The translations under genes were made by a program, and so were the position numbers. Shown one piece after another: positions 1,732 through 38,339 of a stretch of DNA of 64,000 bases. How positions within the stretch are numbered: position 1 is the first letter of the stretch; every line of letters starts with the position of its first letter. The stretch lies in assembly GCF_008727865.1 (NCBI RefSeq), contig NZ_VTWU01000005.1, forward strand, positions 1-64,000, read 5' to 3'. Under the pieces are notes generated by a model, which was not told the DNA's origin, did no database searches, and saw only the letters and a program-made list of their open reading frames with translations. This DNA is from Hymenobacter busanensis (GTDB taxonomy: Bacteria > Bacteroidota > Bacteroidia > Cytophagales > Hymenobacteraceae).

Positions 1732-3093
1732 GTGATTCAACAAATCCTTTTCTTCCTCGTTGCGGCCGCCGGCATCGGCTTGTTCGCGTGGCAGGTGCGA
1801 AAGATTCGCGCCAATATTCTTAAGGGCAAAGACCGCGCAATGGGCGGACCCGTGAGCGAACGGATCAACAAGACGCTGCTTGTGGCCCTGGGACAGCAAA
1901 AGATGTTCAAGCGCATCACGCCGGCGCTGCTGCACATGGTAGTGTACGTAGGCTTTTTGGTTATCAACGTTGAGGTCATCGAAATCCTGATAGACGGCAT
2001 CTTCGGCACGCACCGGGTGCTGAGCTTCCTGGGTCCGGTGTATGACGCGCTGATGGCGGTAAATGAAGTTCTCGGGGCGCTGGTCATTGTTGCCGTCGCC
2101 GCGTTCTGGTGGCGCCGCAACCGTACCCAGCCCGTGCGCCGCCTTACGGGCGTAGAAATGCGTGCTTGGCCGCGCCTCGACGCCAACATCATCCTCTACA
2201 TCGAAGTGGCGCTGATGCTGGCGCTGTTCACCTTCAACACGGCCGATCTGAAGCTGCATCAGCAAGAAGGGGTGGAGTTGCCGGGCGCTTTTCCCATTAG
2301 CTCGTTGCTTGTGGGTTTGTTTCCCGATAGTGTTACGGCGCTACACATGCTGGAGCGCATCGGCTGGTGGATTCACATCACGGGCATTCTGGCCTTCCTG
2401 AATTACCTGCCTTCGTCGAAGCACTTCCACATTATCATGGCTTTCCCGAACGTGTATTACTCGCGTTTGGTCCCACAGGGCCAGTTTTCGAATGTCGACA
2501 GCATCACGCACGAGGTGAAGGCCATGATGGACCCGAGCTACCAAGTGCCGCCCGCGCCGGTCGACGCCGACGGGCAGCCGGTGGTGCAGCGCTTCGGCGC
2601 CAAGGATGCCGACGACCTCTCGTGGCTGAACCTGCTGAACGCGTATTCCTGCACCGAGTGCGGCCGCTGCACCTCGGTGTGCCCCGCCAACCTCACAGGC
2701 AAACTCCTTTCGCCGCGCAAAATTATTATGGACACGCGCGACCGGATTGAAGAGAAGTACGAGTCGCCGCTGATTTTTCAGCCCAACAAGTACGACCCCG
2801 AAACCGAGCGCGTGAAAGTGGACGAAGAAGGCTCGTTGGTGCGAGGCAAAGTGACGCCCGAAGAGCTGTGGGCCTGCACCACCTGCAACGCCTGCGTGGA
2901 AGCCTGCCCGGTAAACATCAACCCGCTCGACAGCATCATCGAAATGCGCCGCTATTTGGTGCTAGAGGAGTCGGCCGCGCCGAACTCGTTGAACGTGATG
3001 TTCTCGAACATCGAAAACAACGGCGCGCCCTGGGCCTTCTCGCCCTCCGACCGCTTCAACTGGGCTGACGAGCTGTACGTGGCCGAGAAGTAG
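1732..3093 (+). CDS. Membrane-anchored [4Fe-4S] oxidoreductase (HdrD/GlpC-like)
   Basis: This 453-residue protein starts at GTG. Several hydrophobic segments lie in the first ~260 residues (a helix at about 3-22, others near 62-85, 100-125, 155-175 and 205-220). A ferredoxin-like region follows with two canonical clusters, Cys307-x2-Cys310-x2-Cys313-x3-Cys-Pro and Cys382-x2-Cys385-x2-Cys388-x3-Cys-Pro. The layout resembles the membrane Fe-S subunits of heterodisulfide-reductase/GlpC-type systems that pass electrons to or from quinone. The next gene encodes the matching CCG-domain subunit, so the two probably form one complex. The physiological electron donor cannot be read from the sequence. 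Confidence 0.85.
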   Translation: MIQQILFFLVAAAGIGLFAWQVRKIRANILKGKDRAMGGPVSERINKTLLVALGQQKMFKRITPALLHMVVYVGFLVINVEVIEILIDGIFGTHRVLSFLGPVYDALMAVNEVLGALVIVAVAAFWWRRNRTQPVRRLTGVEMRAWPRLDANIILYIEVALMLALFTFNTADLKLHQQEGVELPGAFPISSLLVGLFPDSVTALHMLERIGWWIHITGILAFLNYLPSSKHFHIIMAFPNVYYSRLVPQGQFSNVDSITHEVKAMMDPSYQVPPAPVDADGQPVVQRFGAKDADDLSWLNLLNAYSCTECGRCTSVCPANLTGKLLSPRKIIMDTRDRIEEKYESPLIFQPNKYDPETERVKVDEEGSLVRGKVTPEELWACTTCNACVEACPVNINPLDSIIEMRRYLVLEESAAPNSLNVMFSNIENNGAPWAFSPSDRFNWADELYVAEK

Positions 3094-3195
3094 CCATTAG
3101 CTAGTGGCTGTTCGCTGTCAGCCCGCAAGTCCCGCAAAAGCAAACAGCCGAAAAAGCATTCGAACATTAACAGCTAATAGCCAACAGCTAGCGGC
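3093..3195. repeat. Inter-cistronic heptad inverted-repeat element A
   Basis: The left arm 3093-3122 is four 7-bp units of the form GCNNNNN (for example GCTGTTC), starting on the last base of the upstream stop codon. The right arm 3168-3195 is four 7-bp units in inverted orientation (TAACAGC, TAATAGC and variants). The spacer is 45 nt. The arm ends 15 nt before the next ATG. Units within an arm are similar but not identical. Confidence 0.75.
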
Positions 3196-3210
3196 TTTCC
3201 TTCAAAATAT

Positions 3211-4113
3211 ATGGCTGAGCAAGTAGCCAAGCGCCAGGTTTCTGTTCCCCTCATGGCCGATTTCGCGGCCCGCAACGAGCAGCCCGAGGTATTGTTCTGG
3301 GTCGGCTGTGCCGGCGCCTTCGACGACCGGTACAAGCGCGTGACCCGCGCCTTTGTGCGCATCCTGGAGCATGTGGGCGTGAAGTACGCCGTACTGGGCA
3401 TGGAAGAAACCTGCACCGGCGACCCCGCCAAGCGGGCTGGCAACGAGTTCCTGTTTCAGATGCAGGCCATGCAGAACATCACCACGTTCGACGGCTACGG
3501 CATCAAAACCATCGTGACGGCCTGCCCGCACTGCTTCAACACCATCAAGAATGAATACCCCGCGCTGGGCGGCAACTACGAGGTGATTCACCACAGCACC
3601 TTCCTGCAGCAGCTCATCAACTCGGGCCGCGTGAAGGTGCAGGGGGGCGAGTCGTACAAAGGCCGCCGCATCACCTTTCACGACAGCTGCTACCTGGGCC
3701 GCGCCAATGATATTTACGAAGCCCCGCGCGAGGTGCTGGCCGCCCTCGATGCCGACCTCGTGGAAATGAAGCGCAGCAAAGCCAACGGCCTGTGCTGCGG
3801 TGCCGGCGGCGCGCAGATGTGGAAAGAGCCCGAGCCCGGCAAGAAAGACATCAACGTGGAGCGCACCGAGGAAGCTCTGGCTACCCTCGACGGCAACGCG
3901 GCGGCTCTCGACGCCCTCTACGGCGTGGAAAGTGGCAATGCCGGCACCACACCCGCGCCCAAGGCTAATGCCCAGGGCAGCATTATTGCCGTAGGCTGCC
4001 CGTTCTGCATGACGATGATGAGCGACGGAGTGAAAAACAAGGAGCGCGAAAGCTCGGTGCAGGTGTTCGACCTGGCCGAGTTGGTAGCCTCTGCCGAAGG
4101 GCTCAACGCCTAG
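3211..4113 (+). CDS. CCG-domain (Fe-S)-binding oxidoreductase subunit (HdrB/LldE-like)
   Basis: This 300-residue soluble protein has two cysteine-rich modules of the CCG family. The first has a GCAG cysteine, a TCTGD segment and CPHC. The second has DSCYLGR, LCCGAGG and GCPFC. In HdrB, GlpC and LldE these cysteines bind a noncubane or [4Fe-4S] cluster. Module 1 has TCTGD where module 2 has the canonical CCG, a common asymmetry. The gene follows its membrane partner after 117 nt filled by repeat element A. The pair probably transfers electrons between a soluble donor and the membrane quinone pool. Confidence 0.85.
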   Translation: MAEQVAKRQVSVPLMADFAARNEQPEVLFWVGCAGAFDDRYKRVTRAFVRILEHVGVKYAVLGMEETCTGDPAKRAGNEFLFQMQAMQNITTFDGYGIKTIVTACPHCFNTIKNEYPALGGNYEVIHHSTFLQQLINSGRVKVQGGESYKGRRITFHDSCYLGRANDIYEAPREVLAALDADLVEMKRSKANGLCCGAGGAQMWKEPEPGKKDINVERTEEALATLDGNAAALDALYGVESGNAGTTPAPKANAQGSIIAVGCPFCMTMMSDGVKNKERESSVQVFDLAELVASAEGLNA

Positions 4114-4143
4114 GCAAACCCCACAAATTGGCCCTAGATTAGC

Positions 4144-37091: not shown

Positions 37092-37096
37092 CGCGG

Positions 37097-38251
37097 CTAC
37101 AGGATGGTGCTGCCGGTGCTGGTGCCGGAGCTGATGCCAGGGTCGGCGAGCATGCGCACCACGGTGGTGTTGGTGGCAAAGGTGCCGCCGTGGGCTTCCA
37201 CAATTTCGAGGATGCGGTAGTTTACTTCCTCTTTCACGTCCAGGTATTCGTCGTAGGTGGGCACCTGCACGAAGTACTGCACCGACACGTCGCGGCCGCT
37301 TTGGGTGAGAGCCGCCAGCTTGATCTGTACCTCCTCGGGCACCACGTTGGGCAGCTGCAGCAGGTACTGGCGCAGCTCGGTGGCAATGCCCAGCAGCTGC
37401 TCGCGGGTGGTGTCGTGGCTGAAGTTCAGAGTGAAGGTTACGCGGCGTGCGGTGCGCAGCGAGAGGTTGTCGAGCGGCTTGTCAATCATCGAGCGGTTGG
37501 GCACCGTCACGTAGCTTTTTTCGGCTGTGCGCAGGCGTGTGCTCCGAAACCCAATCTTCTCCACGGTACCCGTAATGCCGCCCACCGTCACCAATTCGCC
37601 TACCTGGAAAGGCCGGTCGAGGAAGATGGTGAACGAGGCAATCAGGTTTTCGAGGCTTTCCTTGGCCGCAAACGCCACCGCCAAACCACCGATGCCCAAG
37701 CCGCCAATCAGCGCCGTCACGTTCACGGCAAACACCTGCCCGAGCATCACCAGGAAGGCGAAAATCAGCACCAGCACTTTCAGGAAGTCCTTGGCGAAGG
37801 GAATGAACTGCGCGTCGAGGCGGGTGTTGACGTTGGTCGTAAACTCGGCCCGGCGGCGGTACACCAACTCGGCAAAGTCGATGAGGCGCAGCACCACCCA
37901 GGCCATGGCCCAGATGACGCCCATCTGGTAGAGCCGGAACGCGGCCTTCTTCAGCCACGGCTCGTTGTGGGCCAGGTCGGTAACGCGTACGGGGTAGTCG
38001 AGCACGTTGAAGGCCAGAAACAGCGTAAACAGAAACAGCACCACCGACAGCGGCTGAATCAGTAAGGCATTGAGCTGCTGCTCGCTCACCCCAGCCGTGT
38101 ACTTCTTGGTCAGCCGGTAAATCAGCTTCGCCACGATGCGCGACAGCAGCCGCCGCAGCAAAAAGCCCAGCAGCAGCACAATTCCGCAGACCATGAACTG
38201 CCCGACGGTATTGCCGAAAAAGCGCTGATTCAGAAAGTGTTGAACGTTCAT
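37097..38251 (-). CDS. MscS-family mechanosensitive ion channel
   Basis: The ATG at 38251 gives 384 residues. Four transmembrane segments lie in about 20-195. The pore-lining helix carries the small-residue pattern GGLGIGGLAVAFAAKE, and the MscS beta domain starts FQVGELVTVGGITGTVEKIGF. The protein would release solutes on hypo-osmotic shock. The C-terminal alpha/beta domain ends in a Ser/Thr/Gly tail. The gene lies downstream of, and co-directional with, the glutamate-dehydrogenase-family gene, with repeat element F filling the gap. Confidence 0.93.
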   Translation of the reverse strand: MNVQHFLNQRFFGNTVGQFMVCGIVLLLGFLLRRLLSRIVAKLIYRLTKKYTAGVSEQQLNALLIQPLSVVLFLFTLFLAFNVLDYPVRVTDLAHNEPWLKKAAFRLYQMGVIWAMAWVVLRLIDFAELVYRRRAEFTTNVNTRLDAQFIPFAKDFLKVLVLIFAFLVMLGQVFAVNVTALIGGLGIGGLAVAFAAKESLENLIASFTIFLDRPFQVGELVTVGGITGTVEKIGFRSTRLRTAEKSYVTVPNRSMIDKPLDNLSLRTARRVTFTLNFSHDTTREQLLGIATELRQYLLQLPNVVPEEVQIKLAALTQSGRDVSVQYFVQVPTYDEYLDVKEEVNYRILEIVEAHGGTFATNTTVVRMLADPGISSGTSTGSTIL

Positions 38252-38263
38252 GGCTGAATAAGG

Positions 38264-38339
38264 GAGTTGGTGGTGAGTAGCCCGATGCGGCTCCAATGGA
38301 ACGGTACCCGGCTACTCACTACCCAATACGCAGTACCAA
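38264..38339. repeat. Inter-cistronic heptad inverted-repeat element F
   Basis: Read on the minus (gene) strand, four heptads (TTGGTAC, TGCGTAT, then two more) lie at 38339-38312 just after the upstream stop. Inverted heptads (CTACTCA, CCACCAA) lie at 38280-38267. The second arm ends about 15 nt before the MscS ATG at 38251. Confidence 0.72.

Follow-up and report, generated by a model that had tools for sequence, protein, structure and literature searches.

Inverted tandem repeats of variable unit after stop codons in Hymenobacter: a predicted hairpin kept at particular gene boundaries while its sequence changes

Short repeats that can fold between genes are on record in other bacterial groups. 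The nearest known system to the elements discussed below is the cyanobacterial heptamer (STRR) hairpins, whose units usually measure 7 bp and which form a hairpin between neighboring genes; their function was called unknown, and roles in transcript stability or translational coupling were suggested (PMC2670836). The present analysis concerns inverted tandem-repeat elements in a 64,000-nt window of Hymenobacter busanensis (contig NZ_VTWU01000005.1), where "the window" means this whole stretch and G000 denotes its genome, which has Solirubrum and Hymenobacter as near kin. These elements share an architecture anchored to the stop codon of the upstream gene, persist at certain gaps as predicted structure while their sequence turns over, and change jointly in both arms. 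They resemble STRR in being tandem repeats able to fold as a hairpin between genes, the heptamer period applying to about half of them. They differ in belonging to another phylum and in that period 8 is nearly as common as period 7 (73 vs 82 of 167 elements). Beyond what is described for STRR, unit swapping was counted here over 80 loci with flanking-gene controls, and stop anchoring was measured.

TAACTGA direct repeats occur in Beggiatoaceae, cyanobacteria, and a few Bacteroidetes (MacGregor 2015, PMC4679880), and most of those in one Beggiatoaceae genome sit just upstream of start codons; the same paper notes 7-nt indels that separate closely related cyanobacteria, as well as five Bacteroidetes with heptamer repeats. 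The Hymenobacter elements likewise form intergenic heptamer arrays, and the right-arm unit CAACTGA lies one base away. That paper describes the TAACTGA repeats as direct arrays of a single fixed unit (one case in its main genome is indirect), whereas the Hymenobacter arms are inverted and their unit is free. A forward-oriented position shortly upstream of a start codon applies to right arms where the gap is short, and does not where it is long or convergent. The pattern TAACTGATAACTGA was found in 12 of 60 genomes of the family, with a reversed control pattern in none, and a search of G000 for exact TAACTGA direct repeats gave 0 matches to it. The REP/BIME palindromes of enterobacteria also follow stop codons, and at distances of up to 15 nt from it REPs are reported to make ribosomes stall and to reduce translation (PMC12306157). 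REPs have genome-wide consensus motifs, unlike the Hymenobacter elements, which comprise 90 units among 177 elements and are built in tandem. The hairpins that Monttinen and Loytynoja (2022, PMC8794818) trace to template switching, at microRNA loci and in rRNA genes, share the multibase compensatory changes, the perfect stems, and the excess of G-C and U-A pairs; tandem arrays replaced wholesale at a fixed site are not among the cases in the available portion of that source. In Anabaena nif transcripts, stem-loops near processing sites were proposed to stabilize the RNA, with a mutant cited as unpublished (PMC4284476). Among the papers listed by full-text searches of an open-license library, which included work on STRR hairpins and TAACTGA repeats, none describes inverted variable-unit elements in Hymenobacter or the swapping of units at orthologous gaps over many species.

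The preliminary description of the window had placed six such elements (A-F) between genes, all on one plan of tandem units near a stop codon and inverted copies before the next start, and had called B weak and the other five clear. Compared with 1000 dinucleotide shuffles for each gap (floor p 0.001), that plan is clear in A, C, D, and E, partial in F, and unsupported for B in G000. The arms lie as follows.

3092..3118, + strand: element A left arm, TRTTRGC-like heptamers, beginning in the stop codon of the Fer4-domain gene 1732-3093 (Pfam)
3170..3196, + strand: element A right (inverted) arm, upstream of the CCG-domain gene 3211-4113 (Pfam)
10463..10538, + strand: proposed element B, between the GNAT acetyltransferase gene 9892-10449 and truA 10577-11440
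16067..16091, + strand: element C left arm, AATGAGC, overlapping the end of the ABC transporter gene 14300-16078
16154..16178, + strand: element C right arm, GCTCATT; the 172-aa gene 16183-16701 has its called start 4 nt further on
23706..23741, + strand: element D left arm, AGTTGCC in about 4.6 copies, at the stop of the Glu/Leu dehydrogenase gene 22615-23706
23776..23811, + strand: element D right arm, CAACTGG/CAACTGA; nusB (23814-25028) starts 2 nt further on
25452..25492, + strand: element E left arm, AATGTGG-like, period about 9, right after the stop of the YtxH-like gene 25137-25451
25499..25539, + strand: element E right arm, CCACATT-like, the tandem array continuing to about 25557
38298..38323, - strand: element F left arm (in gene direction), downstream of the stop codon that ends the Glu/Leu dehydrogenase gene 38343-39569 (-)
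38269..38294, - strand: element F right arm, before the MscS-like gene 37097-38251 (-)

Elements A, C, D, and E each reached joint p 0.001 and passed a strict detector that requires inverted arms, a second register one unit off, and tandem arms (periods 6-10 only). Their periods and RNA minimum free energy (MFE) z-scores are 7 and -3.9 for A (gap 3094-3210), 7 and -5.0 for C (gap 16079-16182), 7 and -8.5 for D (gap 23707-23813), and 9 and -8.7 for E (gap 25452-25564). Relative to the end of the upstream gene, the left arms of these four begin at distances from 12 nt before it to 0 nt after it, the right arms in their best register end 2-25 nt before the called start, and the TAA stop of the ABC transporter gene sits within the element C repeat. 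Element F (gap 38252-38342) has one good stem (stem p 0.002, joint p 0.001, RNA fold z -2.9); its tandem structure proved weaker than described (p 0.058), and the element fails the strict detector. The same gap in G003, G004, and G007 holds a GC-rich non-tandem inverted repeat. Element B (gap 10450-10576) did not rise above shuffles in G000 (stem p 0.57, RNA fold z 0.17); of its seven orthologous gaps, four scored high with other units (19, 34.5, 34.5, and 32.5 in G001, G002, G003, and G007), and three scored low in G005 (14), G004 (0), and G006 (0). At gathering score, Rfam 15 matched four tRNAs only in the window and no structured-RNA family at the elements.

At orthologous gaps, the hairpin architecture was often kept with a different sequence. 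Among seven same-genus genomes (G001-G007), the gap before the CCG-domain gene, GCTGTTA-like in G000, carries GTTGTCA-like units in G002 and G003, AGTATTG-like in G005, GCTATTA-like in G007, and a remnant in G004. The gap before truA has an AATTCTG-like unit in G001, G002, and G007, while that before nusB has AGTTGCC in G000, GGTGAGAT in G001, AGTTGTC in G002, and an 8-mer AGTTTAGG-like unit in G003, G004, G006, and G007. For a broader view, 80 named loci of relatives were fetched via NusB, nearly all from Hymenobacter and one per species (L138 lacks upstream sequence), and the comparison took in 30 gaps whose flanking gene families recur together in 12 or more loci, counting copies of 25-600 nt. 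In these relatives, strict elements occupy 45/67 dehydrogenase-nusB gaps, 43/79 ytxH-idh gaps, and 16/20 g20-21 gaps; the other 27 gaps show 0 to 18 percent, apart from a small convergent set with 3/10. The elements therefore belong mainly to particular gaps. Species loci are not independent, and kinship entered through the paired-change test and the tree count given below; the strict detector misses decayed elements, such as those of L067 and L143 at the nusB gap, and genes were called with our own hexamer-based caller, whose starts may be off and are clearly uncertain at the g20-21 gap.

RNA MFE z-scores below -2, computed on at most the first 130 nt after the stop, were obtained in 67/67 co-directional dehydrogenase-nusB gaps, 77/79 ytxH-idh gaps, and 17/20 g20-21 gaps. 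This holds for the strict elements (45/45, 42/43, and 14/16, respectively) and for the cases with no tandem element (22/22, 35/36, and 3/4), which at these hot gaps carry MITE-like GTCAT...GAGC palindromes or GC-rich stems. Six cases, two at the nusB gap and four at the idh gap, have no strict element, score-12 stem, terminator-like hairpin, or promoter-like motif, and all but L118 (idh gap) still have z < -2. Comparison gaps often fold too: z < -2 was found in 62/80 idh-DUF1573, 29/80 nusB-ytxH, 36/64 DUF1573-yajC, 15/44 ABC-172aa, 14/19 9-23, 20/24 18-19, 19/25 17-18, 1/21 13-12, and 3/20 22-20 gaps, with terminator-like hairpins making up 16/19, 20/24, and 17/23 of the non-element cases at gaps 9-23, 18-19, and 17-18. 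The hot gaps are thus marked instead by a mostly tandem hairpin with changing sequence. At the nusB gap, 30 of the 45 strict elements have period 7 and 15 have period 8. On a NusB tree built by a quick method (35/78 inner branches well supported), this distribution needs at least 11 changes between 7 and 8 (45 species); with the three states 7, 8, and other, at least 29 are needed for 67 species. Units are steadier at the idh gap, where no period-7 element scored. At the nusB gap, two species have the same unit in 21/64 pairs with ≥90% NusB identity and in 32/493 pairs with 60-70%; the corresponding figures are 36/65 and 50/408 for the idh gap, and at ≥90% the g20-21 gap gives 12/51. The promoter-like motif TAnnTTTG is present in 0/45 strict nusB-gap elements and in 14/43 at the idh gap.

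The exchange is visible between close species. H. jeollabukensis (L068) and H. edaphi (L069) are 93-99% identical in flanking 300-nt bins, 97% in the last 30 nt of the upstream gene, and 100% in the first 30 nt of nusB; the nusB gap is 61% identical, with the unit AGTTGTC (7-mer) in the one and GGTGAGAT (8-mer) in the other. Similar swaps, with flanking bins 83-95% identical, separate L085/L089, L084/L085, L074/L078, L090/L091, and L115/L117, and the unit is kept in the close pairs L119/L141, L128/L132, L094/L095, and L074/L075. L084 and L089 have about 20 nt before the start in common, including the outer right-arm unit, and differ in the inner units, a single case that hints at replacement from inside. 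Import of the gap by recombination from a distant species was considered and set aside, there being no clear drop in flank identity in L068/L069 or the other close pairs.

Both arms change together. The paired-change test used each species-gap once and only pairs with 70-98.5% gap identity. In the resulting 34 nonoverlapping alignable element pairs, 44 two-sided changes fell at paired positions, against 7.8 expected from the single-site rate; 37 of them restored a Watson-Crick pair, 4 gave G-U, and 3 were broken, while one-sided changes produced 30 G-U, 25 A-C, and 27 other combinations. Standing mismatches within elements comprise 204 G-U vs 175 A-C in relatives (p 0.15) and 26 vs 20 in G000, compared with 85 vs 36 in the terminator-like hairpins of the same genomes (n=173; p 1e-5, and p 0.002 against the elements), a test that presumes equal transition rates on both strands. 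Since element mismatches carry no G-U excess, no selection through wobble intermediates is visible, though the same test detects it in terminators. The proposal that the elements are scars of fold-back replication keeps its support from this joint, mostly full Watson-Crick change with no G-U excess over A-C. Pairs are also asymmetric (1398 G-C over 283 C-G; 1350 T-A over 1075 A-T), which runs in the direction that PMC8794818 ties to template switching; the G-C component is very large and could stem from something else.

In number, the elements exceed chance. The G000 sample comprised the window and 35 further stretches of the same genome, 764 kb in total. A first scan with a looser score, which also catches terminators and MITE-like palindromes, placed 60/477 gaps at 18 or above vs 2/1908 shuffles. 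With the strict detector, 15/311 co-directional, 0/69 convergent, and 0/86 divergent gaps of this sample scored, and 11/283 co-directional gaps remained positive with the window left out. Shuffled controls, one per gap, gave 0 strict elements in 466 gaps for G000 and 1131 for the relatives. The post-stop elements are accordingly not chance, and the first refutation named in the preliminary description, a frequency no higher than in shuffled sequence, is contradicted by these counts. Scaling by length suggests roughly 75-100 strict elements in the 4.89-Mb genome.

The 167 strict co-directional elements (15 from G000, 152 from relatives) have periods of 7 (n=82), 8 (n=73), 9 (n=9), 6 (n=2), and 10 (n=1). 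Left arms consist of 26 percent A, 9 percent C, 33 percent G, and 32 percent T, right arms being approximately the complement, and the left arm is G-rich, the right having C > G, in 161/167 elements; terminator-like hairpins have a C-rich left arm in 119/173, a G-rich one in 37, and an even one in 17. Because an inverted repeat reads alike from both strands, this bias is a property of the element and not of gene direction. The median distance from stop to left arm is 3 nt where the gap measures 25-110 nt (n=57), 2.5 nt where it measures 110-150 nt (n=70), and 13.5 nt where it measures 150-400 nt (n=40); for right arm to start, the medians in these three classes are 9, 15, and 89.5 nt. The element is tied to the stop codon, since the left arm stays near the stop while the distance to the start grows with gap length. 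Downstream of the right arm, the T fraction over 12 nt is 0.32 (mean of 93 elements with room), with no U-tract overall; at the idh gap, several elements do lead into a T-rich stretch and a promoter-like motif. The idea that the arrays supply stop codons in all frames was rejected, stop triplets being enriched in left arms (516 vs 414, sd 11) and in right arms too (232 vs 142 in dinucleotide shuffles, sd 7).

Orientation is less strict than first described. Restriction to co-directional gaps held in the G000 sample and failed in the 80 loci of relatives, where strict elements occupy 152/815 co-directional, 11/176 convergent, and 4/140 divergent gaps; the convergent cases rule out exclusive co-directional placement. 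With loci centered on nusB, three heavily sampled gaps dominate the relatives' count, and leaving them out gives 50/651 co-directional vs 15/316 convergent plus divergent gaps (p 0.10). Pooling G000 and relatives, with the hot gaps left out for the relatives only and D and E counted, gives 65/962 co-directional, 11/245 convergent, and 4/226 divergent. Divergent gaps are depleted in elements (p 0.002 against co-directional), and convergent gaps are not clearly different (p 0.24), so that the equality named in advance as a refutation was absent for divergent gaps and nearly reached for convergent ones. By eye, the divergent matches in L108 and L135 look like false positives and those in L094 and L095 look real.

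The units had been described as not homologous to one another. Locus by locus this is true, and the 15 strict G000 elements use several different units; identical units nevertheless recur at unrelated gaps. Across G000 and relatives, 177 of 178 co-directional and convergent elements were compared and contain 90 distinct units, with an identical unit in 43 different-gap pairs vs a mean of 3.6 and a maximum of 11 in 200 draws from a first-order arm-composition model. That model ignores biochemical preference, and the comparison therefore establishes shared words, not shared descent. Genome-wide copying between elements was rejected: among 149 co-directional elements in gaps between gene families common to at least two loci, units of the same genome are barely more alike (11/125 above a 5% threshold, p 0.05; rank p 0.37). 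A nucleotide-sugar operon of G000 (L034:3789-7262; G000:C7 about 67.8-71.3 kb) has elements in four consecutive gaps between genes for UDP-glucose dehydrogenase, epimerase-type proteins, a GDP-mannose 4,6-dehydratase family member, and a nucleotidyl transferase. Three of the four share a AAATGGCT-like unit, which suggests local copying, and the fourth has an AATGTG unit. In 20-kb stretches from 15 other Bacteroidota genomes, same-plan elements were found in G157 (same family), G153 (same order), and G009, G040, and G102 (same class), with some weaker matches; G064 gave one match, equal to the shuffled rate (1 vs 1). The stretches of G156, G158, G118, G083, G056, and G141 contained none, nor did three genomes outside the class (G010, G037, and G119; 33 co-directional gaps).

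The reading we favor, at a probability of about 0.46 and thus short of even odds, is that a post-stop RNA hairpin is kept as a shape whose sequence is free, being rebuilt by slippage and template switching. Arrays would grow by slippage on the 7-8-nt unit, and intramolecular template switching during DNA synthesis would copy the first arm into the second or correct the second to match it, from which fast cassette turnover and rebuilding from many starting words would follow. Template switching may be the cause of the joint Watson-Crick replacement of arms, which it would suit. In the transcript, the hairpin would lie within the footprint of the ribosome terminating at the upstream stop and could act as a 3′-end or intercistronic element. 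It might shield the 3′ end of the upstream cistron, fix where that end lies, or uncouple this cistron from the next, along the lines suggested for STRR hairpins and reported for REPs near stop codons; the cistrons would presumably be affected in their 3′ ends, their stability, or their coupling. A more ambitious version is possible and is offered tentatively: a regulatory RNA element conserved as shape at fixed gene boundaries, family-deep, its sequence disposable and rebuilt by the replication machinery, through slippage and arm-to-arm template switching, from any 7- or 8-nt word, with mutation rather than G-U selection keeping the arms paired. The preliminary description had offered stems between cistrons, which might tune expression, and fold-back scars as two possibilities. 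At certain gaps a hairpin is indeed kept in nearly every species with its sequence free, and the nucleotide-sugar operon has elements in four gaps running; the emphasis on co-directional gaps was too strong, and partial support remains for both ideas, as layers. Several points tell against our preferred reading. The function of the hairpin is something we infer; the missing G-U preference also fits a selfish or neutral palindrome acting at the DNA level with inert RNA; and the constancy at the nusB and idh gaps could reflect a hotspot rather than selection. As the nine comparison gaps indicate, a persistent hairpin alone is a common trait, the high gaps being largely terminator-like. Convergent gaps are not clearly poorer in elements, so a cistron-to-cistron role is not the whole story, and template switching alone explains neither the replacements between 7 and 8 nor the identical units at unrelated gaps.

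Competing accounts share parts of this evidence. An unselected hotspot, where an inverted tandem array in a promoterless gap grows and homogenizes by slippage and template switching, would accommodate the joint arm change with no G-U preference, a stop codon lying within the repeat (element C), and the absence of TAnnTTTG from the 45 strict nusB-gap elements, though the motif occurs in 14/43 at the idh gap. We consider it unlikely, given that hairpins of several unrelated builds, GC-rich stems included, fill 67/67 and 77/79 cases at two gaps, that gaps 13-12 (1/21) and 22-20 (3/20) are nearly free of hairpins with seven more in between, and that divergent gaps are depleted. Similarly doubtful are mobile cassettes, that is, short inverted-repeat families with no host function that insert after stops and replace each other, unit families being element families. 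Identical units at unrelated gaps (43 pairs vs a mean of 3.6), the exchange of whole arms and loop between close species with like flanks, and the MITE-like palindromes that occupy the same nusB-gap place in several species speak for such cassettes, but units are hardly more alike within than between genomes, 177 elements hold 90 different units, no shared ends or target duplications were noticed (in the course of work that included no systematic search for them), and pure parasitism does not predict the other hairpins of the non-tandem cases (22/22, 35/36, and 3/4). The post-stop hairpin is not an ordinary intrinsic terminator, and even terminators of unusual make-up appear improbable. They would explain the stop-proximal position, the T-rich stretch and promoter-like motif after several idh-gap elements, and the GC-rich stems at the same place in some other species; the low T fraction after the right arm (0.32), the G-rich left arm (161/167, vs C-rich in 119/173 terminator-like hairpins), and the lack of a promoter-like motif in 45 strict nusB-gap elements, although nusB is presumably expressed, argue otherwise. 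Least probable of all is control of translation start, with the repeat serving as a binding site or leader as proposed for the TAACTGA repeats. The short-gap right arm does end a median of 9 nt before the start, in keeping with the upstream position of most TAACTGA repeats in one Beggiatoaceae genome reported in PMC4679880, yet elements in long gaps stay near the stop, with the start a median of 89.5 nt away, and elements occur in convergent gaps, where no start follows.

Palindromes of other kinds were noted near the elements. MITE-like palindromes of GTCATCCTGAGC, GTCATGCTGAGC, and GTCATTGCGAG types are nested in or beside tandem arms at five loci (L036:13859-14039, L018:3790-4018, L082:7857-8000, L140:15598-15777, and L217:16576-16935); in L082 and L140, the stretch between MITE and arms also forms a palindrome, which looks as though a fold-back event had copied the entire nest. 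A one-sided GGCAACG/GGCAACC heptamer array of about 12 units lies beside a MITE-like palindrome at L036:18368-18678. In the window, the gap 26567-26657 (after the idh gene) has orthologs with a MITE-like palindrome in G001, G002, G005, and G006 and none in G000, G003, G004, and G007, a patchy presence by which that repeat looks mobile. Y1 (RAYT) transposases are associated with REP elements, and two Y1 transposase (Y1_Tnp, PF01797) matches, which might relate to the palindromic repeats, exceeded the cutoff in G000 (G000:C6:559694-560029 and 59302-59508). At window positions 6890-7204, a GC-rich terminator-like hairpin is followed by a TTGGCAYARAWGTTGGCTT stretch, perhaps a promoter, and this arrangement is kept in G000 and six orthologous gaps.

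Variable-unit inverted heptamer and octamer hairpins extend a known class of repeat hairpins in which the cyanobacterial STRR are on record. For one Hymenobacter gap, 67 co-directional cases are now available, every one of which has a predicted hairpin although the sequence was repeatedly exchanged, along with pairs of close species whose flanks are alike. Scans for conserved sequence or alignment covariation would miss such elements, and if the reading is true, homology searches and covariance models cannot see an element defined by shape only as one family. It becomes testable whether template switching can maintain an RNA structure without selection through wobble pairs, and whether bacterial cells depend on hairpins, whatever their sequence, following certain stop codons.

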